The notes beneath the pieces were generated by a model. That model saw only the letters and a list, made by a program, of their open reading frames with translations. It was not told the origin of the DNA and made no database searches. This document shows, piece after piece, positions 35,520 to 41,950 of a stretch of DNA of 64,000 nt. Every line of letters begins with the position of its first letter. Position 1 is the stretch's first letter. The position numbers and the translations under genes were made by a program. Source of the stretch: Victivallaceae bacterium (GTDB lineage Bacteria; Verrucomicrobiota; Lentisphaeria; Victivallales; Victivallaceae); assembly GCA_024405735.1 (NCBI GenBank), contig JAKSOF010000010.1, forward strand, positions 1-64,000, in the 5' to 3' direction.

Positions 35520-36242
35520 ATGACAAAACACTCCGGTATCATTTATTTCATTCTGCCGGCTTACGACCCGGATGAAAAGATCCTTGCCGTCGTCCGCGAA
35601 CTGACGGAGAAAAAAAGCGCAGACGCGCAAATCCTCATCGTCGATGACGGCTCGACGCCGATGCACAAAAAAACGTGCTTTGCGCCGTTGGAAACACTTC
35701 CCGGCGTCACCGTCTTGCATCACGAAGTCAATCGCGGCAAAGGTGCGGCGCTCAAGACGGCATTTTGCTTTATTTTACAGCAAAACGCCCCTGCCCTCGG
35801 CGGCGTCACCGCCGACTGCGACGGACAGCACTCGGTCGAAGACATGCTTAAAGCGGCAAAATTTCTGCGGCAGAATCCCGATTCTCTCATTCTCGGATGC
35901 CGCCGCTTTTCCGATGATCTCCCGTGGAAAAGCCGCGTCGGGAACCGCCTCACCAAATGGATATTCCGCGTTTTATTGCACCGTCCGCTTGCCGACACGC
36001 AAACGGGATTGCGGGGCATCCCCGCATCGCAAATGACAAGTTATGCCGGACTTCCCGGCAACGGCTTTGAGTTTGAAACGCAAATGCTCCTTGCCACGCC
36101 GCAGGGGAAATTTTTTGAATTTCCGATCGAAACGATCTATTTCGATCAGAATTCCGGCACGCATTTTCATCCGGTCAAGGATACGTTGCGCATTTACGGC
36201 GTGATTTTCCGCTTCTTTTTCCGGCGGGGTAAACAAAAATGA
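35520..36242 (+). CDS. Glycosyltransferase family 2
   Basis: GT-A fold transferase of 240 residues resembling dolichol-phosphate-mannose synthase-like enzymes: FILPAYDPDEK, IVDDGST, HEVNRGKGAALKTAF, then the metal-binding TADCDGQH (DxD-like) and DTQTGLRG. No membrane helices are obvious, so it would act on the cytoplasmic face. It overlaps the next gene by four bases (ATGA). The two likely form a lipid-linked sugar donor and membrane transferase pair. The ATG lies only ten bases past a terminator, with no clear promoter, so read-through may be used. Confidence 0.85.
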   Translation: MTKHSGIIYFILPAYDPDEKILAVVRELTEKKSADAQILIVDDGSTPMHKKTCFAPLETLPGVTVLHHEVNRGKGAALKTAFCFILQQNAPALGGVTADCDGQHSVEDMLKAAKFLRQNPDSLILGCRRFSDDLPWKSRVGNRLTKWIFRVLLHRPLADTQTGLRGIPASQMTSYAGLPGNGFEFETQMLLATPQGKFFEFPIETIYFDQNSGTHFHPVKDTLRIYGVIFRFFFRRGKQK

Positions 36243-38065
36243 TGTTTCCGCTCTTTTTGGGGATGCTCCTTTTTCTCTTTTCCGGGAGTTTCGCCATAAC
36301 GCTTTGGAGCGGAGAAAAACCGGAGCGCGTCTGGCTGCCGGTGCTTTTTGTCAACGCATTGCTCCTTTACGTTGCGATTTCCTTTCATATCGGAGAATCC
36401 GGCTTCGCTTTGATTTACGCGGTCAATCTGCTTGCGCTTGCTTCCGCAGCCGGACGGAAAATCATCCGCAAAGAAGCGATCCCGTACCGGCAGATTTTTA
36501 CGCCGGGCACGATCTTTCTCCTCGTCGGGCTTACGGCGGCATTCTGGCTCAATTGCTATCCTTATTTTACCGGATGGGATACGATTTCGCACTGGGGGGC
36601 ATATGCGAAACTGCTCTTTCAGGAAGGGAAACTTTCCTGCGAATATCCGCAAAGTATTCTGCTTCACGCCTCTTATCCACCGGGACAGGCGATCCTTTCG
36701 CTTCTGGTGCACAAGTGCTTTTTCTCCCTGCCCTTTGAGGAAAGGATCGTCCTTTTTGCCCACGACCTCGTGATGTGGGGCGTTTTCGCACGGATTTTCG
36801 ACCGCTGTGAGCACGGGGAATGGAAAAAAATGCTCCTTTTGACCGCCGCGTTGCTCGGCGTCGCATTGCCGATGGTCTCCTATTACGTCTACGCGACCGG
36901 ATACAGCGATTGCGCGCTTGCGATGCTCTTTGCCGTCACGATGTACGACGTAGCGACAACGCCGTTTGAAAATCCCTGGAAATTCCTGCAACTTGCCGTT
37001 ATGACCGCGTTTCTTTTTATGATCCGCAATGCGGGCTGGGGATATGCCGTTGGACTTTTGATCCTCTACTTTATCCGCGTCGCCAAAAATTTCCGCGCCG
37101 CGACCGATTCGCCGCTCAAAAAAAGCGCAATGGCGGCGATGTTTTTATTGCCCGTTGCCGTCAAAATCTCCTGGGCGGCGCAACTGAAAATCTACCATAC
37201 GGCGCTCCGCTTCGGCGGCAATCACATCACCCGGGCGGCGCTCCGGGATCTCGTCGTCAACCAGACACCCGATTTCCTCTATACGCTGAAACTTTTCGGC
37301 ATCCAGCTGGTCAGCGGCTACATCGAAGCGCTGTTGCTCATACTTCTCGCGTTGCTCGGGATCGCCAAACTTTGTAAAACACGGGAAAAACTGCAAAGCG
37401 CGAAAATGCTCGTTTTTTTCAATCTGGCAAGTTTCGTCCTTTTTTGCGTCACACTCTACATCTACTATCAATTTGAATTTCAGGAAAAGGCGAATTTCCC
37501 GTCGCTTTGCCGCTATTGCAGCAGTTTTCTGTACTCGCCGCTCGTTGTTCTCCTCTTTTTTCTCGGAGATATTCCCATTCGGCAATCATCGGCAGACAAA
37601 TGCAAAGGATGGCTCTTTCTCTGCGCGGTCGCCGTCTTTCTCGGTTTTTATCTGCCCTACCGCAGTTATCATTTCGACAACTGCTACCACTGGCGGCAAC
37701 AAAACGAAAAGATCGCGCGTTTCGACGCGTTACTGCTCGCACCGGGGAAACATTATACCTCCATCGGACTTTCTGGAGCAGGGTTCAAGACGCTTTGCTT
37801 CATCTACCGCACCCCGTACCATTACCGCCGGGTCGCCGAAGTGCTCGACGAACGCTGTCTGGATGTGATCCCGACGAAAACCATCCGGCAGGCGCTTTTG
37901 CGGGAAAAGATCGATTATGTCTACTTCACCGACAAATTGCCGCAATTCGCCGCGATGCACCCGACGCTTTTTGCACCGGAAAAATTCGACTCTCTGGAAG
38001 ATACGCTCTTTCAGGTCGACGCATACGGCAACTTGCGCCGCGTCGCCGAGCCGGCGGCAGAGTAA
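36239..38065 (+). CDS. Polytopic membrane protein, possible GT-C-type glycosyltransferase
   Basis: 608 residues with about 12 hydrophobic segments and a soluble C-terminal tail of about 110 residues. YFTGWDTISHWGAYAK lies in the first large loop, where GT-C enzymes carry acidic catalytic residues, and YPPGQAILSLL follows. This topology and its coupling to a GT2 suggest transfer of sugar from a lipid carrier at the outer face of the inner membrane. I do not recognise a specific family, so the assignment is tentative. Confidence 0.6.
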   Translation: MMFPLFLGMLLFLFSGSFAITLWSGEKPERVWLPVLFVNALLLYVAISFHIGESGFALIYAVNLLALASAAGRKIIRKEAIPYRQIFTPGTIFLLVGLTAAFWLNCYPYFTGWDTISHWGAYAKLLFQEGKLSCEYPQSILLHASYPPGQAILSLLVHKCFFSLPFEERIVLFAHDLVMWGVFARIFDRCEHGEWKKMLLLTAALLGVALPMVSYYVYATGYSDCALAMLFAVTMYDVATTPFENPWKFLQLAVMTAFLFMIRNAGWGYAVGLLILYFIRVAKNFRAATDSPLKKSAMAAMFLLPVAVKISWAAQLKIYHTALRFGGNHITRAALRDLVVNQTPDFLYTLKLFGIQLVSGYIEALLLILLALLGIAKLCKTREKLQSAKMLVFFNLASFVLFCVTLYIYYQFEFQEKANFPSLCRYCSSFLYSPLVVLLFFLGDIPIRQSSADKCKGWLFLCAVAVFLGFYLPYRSYHFDNCYHWRQQNEKIARFDALLLAPGKHYTSIGLSGAGFKTLCFIYRTPYHYRRVAEVLDERCLDVIPTKTIRQALLREKIDYVYFTDKLPQFAAMHPTLFAPEKFDSLEDTLFQVDAYGNLRRVAEPAAE

Positions 38066-39968: not shown

Positions 39969-40343
39969 ATGAAATTCCGCATGGTCCACAATAATTTCAA
40001 CGTTCTTGATCTTGAAAAAAGCCTGAAGTTTTACGCCGACGCCTTCGATATGCACGAAGTGCGGCGCATCGAGCCTGAAGACGGCAGTTTCATCATCGTC
40101 TATCTTTCCGACGGCAACAGCGCGCATCAATTGGAATTGACCTGGTTGCGCGACCGCACCGAAGCCTACGACCTCGGCGACGACGAATTTCATCTCGCTT
40201 TCACCGTCGACGACTTTGCCGCCGCTCACGCACGCCACGAAAAAATGGGGTGCATCTGCTACGAAAATCCCGCGATGGGCATCTACTTCTGCGAAGACCC
40301 CGATCACTACTGGCTCGAAGTCATCCCCGAAAAAAGATCGTGA
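39969..40343 (+). CDS. VOC-family protein, glyoxalase I-like
   Basis: A 124-residue vicinal-oxygen-chelate protein. The four metal ligands of glyoxalase I line up: His in MVHNNFNV, Glu in HQLELTW, His in DEFHLAFTV and Glu in YWLEVIP, with DLEKSLKFYADAF and FCEDPDHYWLE as family signatures. It would detoxify methylglyoxal adducts, but related dioxygenases and resistance proteins share the fold. The ATG at 39969 follows AGGGAG; the frame extends upstream without similarity. Confidence 0.83.
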   Translation: MKFRMVHNNFNVLDLEKSLKFYADAFDMHEVRRIEPEDGSFIIVYLSDGNSAHQLELTWLRDRTEAYDLGDDEFHLAFTVDDFAAAHARHEKMGCICYENPAMGIYFCEDPDHYWLEVIPEKRS

Positions 40344-40423
40344 TTTTTCATCATTTCCCGGAATTTTGTTTTCCGTTTTCAAAAGAATTCACAAAAAAAT
40401 TTCATTTTTTACCAAGTGCGGCA

Positions 40424-40452
40424 TTGCTTTTACAAAAATTAAGTATTATATT
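40424..40452 (+). promoter_or_regulatory. Promoter of the structured RNA gene
   Basis: TTGCTT, 17 bases, TATATT. Transcription would begin at about 40459, at the very edge of the closing stem. Confidence 0.75.
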
Positions 40453-40457
40453 AATTT

Positions 40458-40607
40458 CGTGCGGAATAAAAATGCGGCAAGTCAAAGGTCTTTCCGGTTT
40501 CCGGTTTGGAAGAGTTCCGGCAAACTGCAAGGCTTCTGACTTGCGTACAGCAGATGCTGTCTGACGCATTTCCGCACGGCGGAGCGGCGTTTGCCGCTCC
40601 GCTTTTT
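40458..40607 (+). ncRNA. Free-standing structured RNA of unknown family
   Basis: No protein frame, but a complete transcription unit of about 150 bases. The closing stem CGTGCGGAA (40458-40466) pairs perfectly with TTCCGCACG (40570-40578). After a five-base bulge TAAAA the stem continues ATGCG/CGCAT. Inside are an eight-base stem GCAAGTCA/TGACTTGC (40477-40484 with 40537-40544), capped by a pyrimidine-rich loop holding TTTCCGG twice and GGAA-gag-TTCC, and a small hairpin ACAGC/GCTGT (40547-40560). The terminator follows directly. A small hairpin in the 3' strand next to the closing stem recalls 6S RNA, but it is short and I cannot name it. It does not look like SRP RNA, tmRNA or a known riboswitch. 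Confidence 0.75.
40579..40607 (+). terminator. Intrinsic terminator of the structured RNA
   Basis: Ten-base stem GCGGAGCGGC/GCCGCTCCGC, loop GTTT, five T. It ends 12 bases before the next promoter, which separates this RNA from the fucosidase transcript. Confidence 0.92.
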
Positions 40608-40619
40608 CCATTTTCATCC

Positions 40620-40648
40620 TTGTATAAAACTCCTTGATATGCTATATT
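40620..40648 (+). promoter_or_regulatory. Promoter of the fucosidase operon
   Basis: TTGTAT, 17 bases, TATATT, about 27 bases of leader and AAGGAG before the ATG. Confidence 0.7.
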
Positions 40649-40681
40649 TATACTGTCACCTGTAACCTGAAGGAGAAAAAA

Positions 40682-41950
40682 ATGGAAAATCAACCGAAGC
40701 CGTTGCCGCGTATCACCGCATTTGAAAATATGGGACTTGGTCTTTTCGTCCACTGGGGGCTTTACTCCCAGCTCGGCGTCGGCGAGTGGACCTGGAAGAT
40801 CCACGAGCGTCCGCGCGAAGATTATTTCCGGCTCGCTGAAACGTTCACCGCCGCCGACTTCGATGCCGAAGACTTGGCGCGGACGGCGAAAAACGCGGGA
40901 ATGAACTACATCGTGTTGACCACCCGCCATCACGAGGGATTTTCCCTTTACGACACCTGCGGCCTCAACACATACGACGCTCCGCACAGTCCGGCGAAGC
41001 GCGACCTCGTCAAGGAATTTGTCGAGGCCTGCCGCAAATATGACATCGTGCCTTTCTTTTATCACACGACGATCGACTGGCACTGGGAAAACCGCCAGAC
41101 CTTTGAACTTTCCGAAGAGGATTTCAAGCGTTATCTCGATTATCTCTGCGCTTCGGTCGAGATCCTCTGCAAAAACTACGGCAAGATCGGCGGATTGTGG
41201 TTCGACGGCAACTGGTCGCGTCCGCAGTCGGACTGGCAGCTTGACCGGATGTACGGCATCATCCGGCGTTATCAGCCCGATGCGATCATCATCAACAACA
41301 CCGGATTGAACAACCTCGGCGAATACGGTCATCCCGAGATCGACAGCGTCACCTTTGAAAACAACACGGCGAAACCGATGGACCGCACGGGGCGCAAAAA
41401 GTATGTCGCCGCCGAAGTCTGCAAAACGATGAACGCCCACTGGGGTCACGCGGAAAACGATTTCGCGTTTCTCTCGCCGCACGCCTTGATCGAGCGCGCC
41501 GCGCACAGTCGCGGTTGCGGCGCCAATTTCCTGCTCAACATCGGTCCGGAAGCGCAGGGACGCATCCCCGATTACGAACGCGCCGCGCTCGCGATCCTCG
41601 GCAAATGGGCGCGTCTCTATCAGGAAGCGGTCTACACACCGCGTCCGGTGCCCGGCATCAAATATCCCGGCCGCGACTTTATGCTCAAGGAAGGGAGCAA
41701 TTATTACTACTTCACCTATGATCTTGACCGCCTCGGCGACAACAACGTGACCTTTGGCACGCACGGCACGGCTTTCCGCGGCGCATACGGTTTCAATGCG
41801 ACGGTCAAAAAGGCATACTGGCTCGACGACAAAAGCGAAGTATCCGTCATTCAGGACAAAAAAGAGGGGCTCCTCAGTTTCTACACGGCGGGCTTCCCGT
41901 ATGGGATGGATACCGTCGTGCGCGTACTCAAGATCGAAACGGAGGAGTAA
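40682..41950 (+). CDS. Alpha-L-fucosidase, GH29
   Basis: Retaining glycoside hydrolase of family 29, removing L-fucose from glycans. The N-terminal barrel begins RITAFENMGLGLFVHWGLYS, TRHHEGFSLYD is the substrate-binding turn, and the nucleophile is probably Asp175 in GGLWFDGNW. There is a C-terminal beta domain of about 70 residues. No signal peptide is seen, so it is predicted to act inside the cell on imported oligosaccharides. The ATG at 40682 follows AAGGAG. It is immediately followed, with no gap, by the lipoprotein gene. Confidence 0.92.
   Translation: MENQPKPLPRITAFENMGLGLFVHWGLYSQLGVGEWTWKIHERPREDYFRLAETFTAADFDAEDLARTAKNAGMNYIVLTTRHHEGFSLYDTCGLNTYDAPHSPAKRDLVKEFVEACRKYDIVPFFYHTTIDWHWENRQTFELSEEDFKRYLDYLCASVEILCKNYGKIGGLWFDGNWSRPQSDWQLDRMYGIIRRYQPDAIIINNTGLNNLGEYGHPEIDSVTFENNTAKPMDRTGRKKYVAAEVCKTMNAHWGHAENDFAFLSPHALIERAAHSRGCGANFLLNIGPEAQGRIPDYERAALAILGKWARLYQEAVYTPRPVPGIKYPGRDFMLKEGSNYYYFTYDLDRLGDNNVTFGTHGTAFRGAYGFNATVKKAYWLDDKSEVSVIQDKKEGLLSFYTAGFPYGMDTVVRVLKIETEE

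Follow-up and report, generated by a model that had tools for sequence, protein, structure and literature searches.

A folded RNA of about 145 bases in Victivallaceae that very probably has a gene of its own

Between a glyoxalase/dioxygenase superfamily gene and an alpha-L-fucosidase gene, the stretch of Victivallaceae DNA analysed here (64,000 nucleotides, referred to as the window) carries a strongly folded segment with a promoter before it and a terminator behind it. What does this segment encode, and does it serve the gene that follows? We conclude that it is very probably a stand-alone gene for a folded RNA of about 145 bases, which looks real, is undescribed, belongs to an ordinary kind and has two members. 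Our preferred reading, at a probability of roughly 0.6, is a free-standing small non-coding RNA gene, narrowly distributed and independent of its neighbours, the strongly folded product of which most likely acts as a regulator in trans.

Along positions 40424–40608, the promoter comes first, then a stem that begins at the predicted +1 and has five A-rich bulged bases next to it, another stem, a three-way junction and, last, the terminator (Table 1). The predicted transcript runs from 40458 to near 40608 and measures about 145–150 nt including the terminator. The −35 element is weak (3/6), and the promoter was not flagged by a consensus scan. The closing stem P1 has nine pairs, the outermost of which shares the first G of the terminator, leaving eight pairs independent of it. 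Near the apical loop, a GGAAGAG motif lies at RNA position 51. An earlier note, made from the letters of this DNA, had described the promoter TTGCTT-17-TATATT, a nine-pair closing stem at the predicted start, a five-base bulge with five more pairs, and a three-way junction with an eight-pair stem and a small hairpin. All of these are present, the bulge being TAAAA and the further pairs ATGCG/CGCAT. The terminator, described there as having ten pairs, counts 11, and the apical loop UUUGGAAGAGUU is an addition to that description. Sequence and comparison together establish the predicted anatomy and the separate transcription unit.

Table 1. Predicted elements of the RNA locus and the adjoining genes (window positions)
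Feature	Position	Strand	Details
Glyoxalase/dioxygenase superfamily gene (PF00903)	39969–40343	+	Upstream neighbour, outside the unit
Promoter	40424–40452	+	−35 TTGCTT 40424–40429, 17-nt spacer containing TTAAGT, −10 TATATT 40447–40452; read from sequence
Structured RNA body, ~120 nt	40458–40577	+	z −5.9 to −6.5; alignment to the G008 RNA
P1 closing stem, 5′ strand	40458–40466	+	CGTGCGGAA; partner TTCCGCACG 40570–40578
5-nt A-rich bulge TAAAA, 5′ side	40467–40471	+	Predicted fold
P2, 5′ strand ATGCG	40472–40476	+	Partner CGCAT 40565–40569; predicted fold
Long arm of three-way junction	40477–40544	+	GCAAGTCA 40477–40484 with TGACTTGC 40537–40544, plus inner helices
Apical loop UUUGGAAGAGUU	40505–40516	+	Tip of long arm; predicted fold
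Small 3′ hairpin of junction, ACAGC-AGAT-GCTGT	40547–40560	+	Predicted fold
P2 and P1, 3′ strands	40565–40578	+	Sequence and predicted fold
Intrinsic terminator	40578–40608	+	11-pair hairpin 40578–40603, then T tract
Separate promoter of the fucosidase	40620–40648	+	TTGTAT 40620–40625, 17 nt, TATATT 40643–40648
Alpha-L-fucosidase gene (PF01120)	40682–41950	+	Downstream neighbour, outside the unit

The fold is stronger than that of shuffled sequences. With the terminator, the RNA has a minimum free energy of −79.7 kcal/mol (z = −7.0, reached by 0 of 200 shuffles), and the z-score is −5.9 when the terminator is left out. In a fold scan tiling the whole 64-kb window, the locus ranks first of 534 tiles (z = −6.5). 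Meanwhile, a perfect 8-bp partner for the 5′ end of the RNA arises in 0.2% of shuffles. We notice that a terminator hairpin of almost identical sequence (GCGGAGCGGC-loop-GCCGCTCCGC) lies 3′ of an unrelated gene in another species, genome G015 (L003 1501–1529); the terminator sequence may be a type that recurs in the genus.

BLASTN against 60 genomes revealed a single meaningful match to the locus, which comprises the promoter and the start of the RNA. It is found in a horse-faeces MAG, Victivallaceae bacterium Horse_feces171 (contig JAKSOG010000009.1; hereafter G008). The promoter region is 88% identical over query positions 13–53, and the G008 promoter, TTGACT-17-TATATT, has a good −35 and equal spacing. 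In G008, P1 is formed by GCGCGGA...TCCGCGC and is followed by the five bulged bases AAAAA. A further stem then leads to a junction, from which a long arm and a 3′ hairpin extend, and the locus closes with a hairpin resembling a terminator. The junction hairpin there has eight pairs and locates at the place corresponding to ACAGC-AGAT-GCTGT. The RNA body is 116 nt long in G008 versus 120 nt here. GGAAGAG is again at the apex of the G008 RNA, at position 48, and the apical loop reads AAGAGGAG there versus UUUGGAAGAGUU here.

Comparing the paired positions of the two RNAs, we observed a compensatory change at one pair of P1 (U-A to C-G) and a change at one pair of P2 (A-U to G-C). For the covariation check that had been proposed earlier, ten P1/P2 pairs were counted: two differ in both bases, and all ten are still able to pair. 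With two sequences only, the signal falls short of significance (125 of 500 shuffles). Such two-sided changes are consistent with covariation and are not proof of it. The innermost two P2 pairs of the present RNA have no counterpart in that register in G008. When the whole RNA without its promoter is compared, 0 of 1000 shuffles align equally well (z 3.9), while the RNA interiors stand only marginally above shuffles (z about 2, 34/1000). Taken together, the closing stem, bulge, length, junction and apical motif make it very likely that the G008 copy is homologous.

The comparison also bears on whether the segment is a small mRNA. An ATG at 40472 begins a frame of 30 codons (MRQVKGLSGFRFGRVPANCKASDLRTADAV) that stays open to a stop at 40562–40564, with a GGA six bases upstream of the ATG. 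However, the aligned site in G008 reads GTG CGC TGA, a two-codon frame, and the putative Shine-Dalgarno sequence is buried in P1. We give translation of this frame a very slim chance.

The RNA of G008 is flanked by a gene or operon on one side and a convergent gene on the other, which from reading their translations we take to be cstA-like and dinG-like, respectively. The place is unrelated to the present locus, and the RNA is free-standing there because a convergent gene comes next. On the other hand, the present RNA is followed by the fucosidase gene, and 79 bases separate the end of the terminator hairpin from the start codon, an arrangement like that of a riboswitch, so that the segment might be read as a leader or attenuator acting in cis on the fucosidase operon. 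Against this, the fucosidase has its own promoter, which starts 17 bases past the terminator hairpin. G026, the closest relative by neighbouring proteins (88% identity for the fucosidase, 93% for the glyoxalase), retains that promoter as TTGCAC-17-TATATT, and upstream of its fucosidase lies another gene and no such RNA; the RNA is therefore not the fucosidase leader. The fucosidase of G008 likewise has no RNA in front of it, and the gene downstream of the G008 RNA is encoded on the opposite strand. Neither G008 nor G026 showed the same gene downstream of, and co-transcribed with, the RNA. These comparisons bring the leader reading close to refutation and uphold the free-standing unit of the earlier note.

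Further out, the locus is flanked by a DEAD-box helicase gene upstream (minus strand) and by a gene for a GDSL-domain protein beyond the fucosidase. The intergenic region 40344–40681 is a synteny breakpoint relative to G026. The RNA thus sits at a point of rearrangement, because G026 holds the helicase and glyoxalase genes on one contig and the fucosidase and GDSL genes on another. Elsewhere in the window, 36239–38065 encodes a hydrophobic, membrane-like protein of 608 residues with no Pfam match.

Some of the identity shared by the RNA loci here and in G008 reflects the promoter type, because the extended promoter core TTAAGYNNTATATTAAT also precedes an unrelated operon. In G000, it stands before a prophage-like terminase small subunit-portal operon (G000:C25:30408-30424; L065 ~1516–1532), and in G008 it likewise lies upstream of a like gene (G008:C1; L064 near 1515, minus strand). 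Judged by these occurrences, TTAAGYNNTATATTAAT is a shared promoter type that accounts for some of the identity. At the prophage-like operon, a palindrome CGAAT-N4-ATTCG lies just 5′ of the core, and it could be a LexA-type site.

The recurrence of the core before an unrelated operon and the position of the RNA at a breakpoint whose flanking gene pairs lie on separate G026 contigs would both suit a functionless remnant. Under this explanation the segment is a chance hairpin-rich intergenic piece, perhaps left by a rearrangement, and its likeness to G008 is promoter type plus coincidence. We regard this as unlikely. The fold is the first-ranked of the 534 windows, the 8-bp closing partner is rare among shuffles, and G008 shares the closing stem, bulge and length besides the promoter, at a similarity that none of the 1000 shuffles attains.

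How widely is the RNA distributed? By sequence, 2 of the 34 species sampled from the genus carry it, that is, one relative is recognisable among 33 sister species. Pattern searches and a covariance model found no copy in the other 32 genus genomes. A promoter-plus-start pattern with at most 3 mismatches, or at most 2 in a shorter core, was accompanied by a closing stem only at the G008 match. The covariance model, comprising promoter, P1 and P2 and trained on two sequences, was run over the 34 genomes; after both training sequences its best score was 32 bits (L048), and the next matches that were read show no RNA. In 84,980 species genomes, the exact pattern occurred 8 times, with the fold only in the G008 record. 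The other Victivallaceae match (L083) was rejected for want of a closing stem, and one match on a viral contig was rejected since the fold is absent.

Homologues at the same place in related genomes, which the earlier note had suggested collecting, did not appear: synteny across the genus at the glyoxalase, fucosidase and G008 dinG loci yielded no further copies, and the G008 copy lies elsewhere. The new family that it had envisaged stands in a thin sense, with two members, and fails in that the stems were not found in the 32 other genus genomes. Absence from incomplete, diverged MAGs counts for little. G026, the closest relative, is 95% complete, and no copy of the RNA was found in it; a conserved housekeeping RNA should have been visible there. 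Judging from the two loci, the position of the RNA is not tied to adjacent genes. Narrow spread and shifting position suggest a fast-evolving regulatory sRNA rather than a housekeeping RNA.

Does the RNA belong to a known family? With cmscan, Rfam 15 gave no family match reaching the gathering score at this locus or for the G008 copy, and the RNA is undescribed in this respect, as had been supposed. Acido-Lenti-1 RNA (RF01687), an orphan structured RNA of Acidobacteria and Lentisphaerae (PMC2864571), is included in Rfam, and cmscan finds no match to it here.

The earlier note had also considered a divergent 6S RNA. Our RNA might be a 6S RNA that has diverged strongly, or might take over the function of 6S; P1 together with the junction would then mimic an open promoter and be bound by the RNA polymerase holoenzyme. 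Many 6S RNAs carry a small 3′ hairpin near the junction, and our RNA has a similar one 3′ of its central region. It further resembles 6S RNA (RF00013) in being free-standing, in having its own promoter and in the closure of both ends by stems. RF00013 detects 6S in 103 of 195 sampled genomes of the phylum versus none of 60 relatives in the order, genus included, which leaves room for a diverged form in these bacteria. However, RF00013 has no match at the locus even at E ≤ 10. A phylum-specific model (R2), built from 24 of the phylum's 6S RNAs, had no match in the window, at L001 or L002, or at the G008 locus, and in 40 relatives it gave scattered weak scores only, of at most 22 bits. The conserved 6S elements of the phylum (5′ CCUGC-GUGUUCG, GCACCCACCU and 3′ CGGCA-GCGG) are absent from both RNA copies. 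Instead of a long hairpin with a two-sided central bubble, the minimum free energy and centroid structures give a one-sided 5-nt bulge and a three-way junction. The RNA, with a body of 120 nt and about 145–150 nt with its terminator, is also shorter than 6S RNA, the length of which is about 160–200 nt (PMC9130861). Finally, it is not genus-wide, being carried by only 2 of 34 genomes. The 6S assignment is not borne out by these results, and we consider it highly improbable.

Within Victivallales, 6S was undetected in the 60 relatives searched with the Rfam model, and nothing convincing emerged from the 40 searched with the phylum model. On these searches, 6S is apparently absent from the order, and for this reason a non-homologous replacement keeps a very small probability: the lineage would have lost 6S, or 6S would have diverged beyond recognition, and our RNA would bind RNA polymerase in the manner of Ms1. 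The Ms1 RNA of Actinobacteria sets a precedent, binding RNA polymerase in a phylum in which no 6S can be detected (PMC9130861). It is ~300 nt long in Mycobacterium and differs in anatomy.

We return to the reading of a small RNA that acts in trans. By sequence, the locus is an independent intergenic unit with a promoter and a terminator. Like trans-acting bacterial sRNAs, it is a ~145-nt intergenic unit with its own promoter and intrinsic terminator, an exposed loop and a narrow spread; unlike a typical base-pairing sRNA, it is more completely paired. From this anatomy we infer transcription, stability through the stems that seal the ends, and action in trans. A sigma-70-type promoter would start transcription at about 40458, and transcription would stop at the terminator near 40608. 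P1 would seal the resulting transcript of about 145–150 nt, and together with the terminator it would protect the ends. The purine-rich apical loop (GGAAGAG) would remain exposed, and would most likely act by base pairing with target mRNAs or as a binding site for a protein.

To our knowledge, few small RNAs have been described from Lentisphaerae or Victivallales. A clean stand-alone RNA gene in an order without detectable 6S provides a concrete probe for RNA-seq and pull-down, and its narrow, position-independent distribution suggests a regulator with fast turnover rather than a housekeeping RNA.
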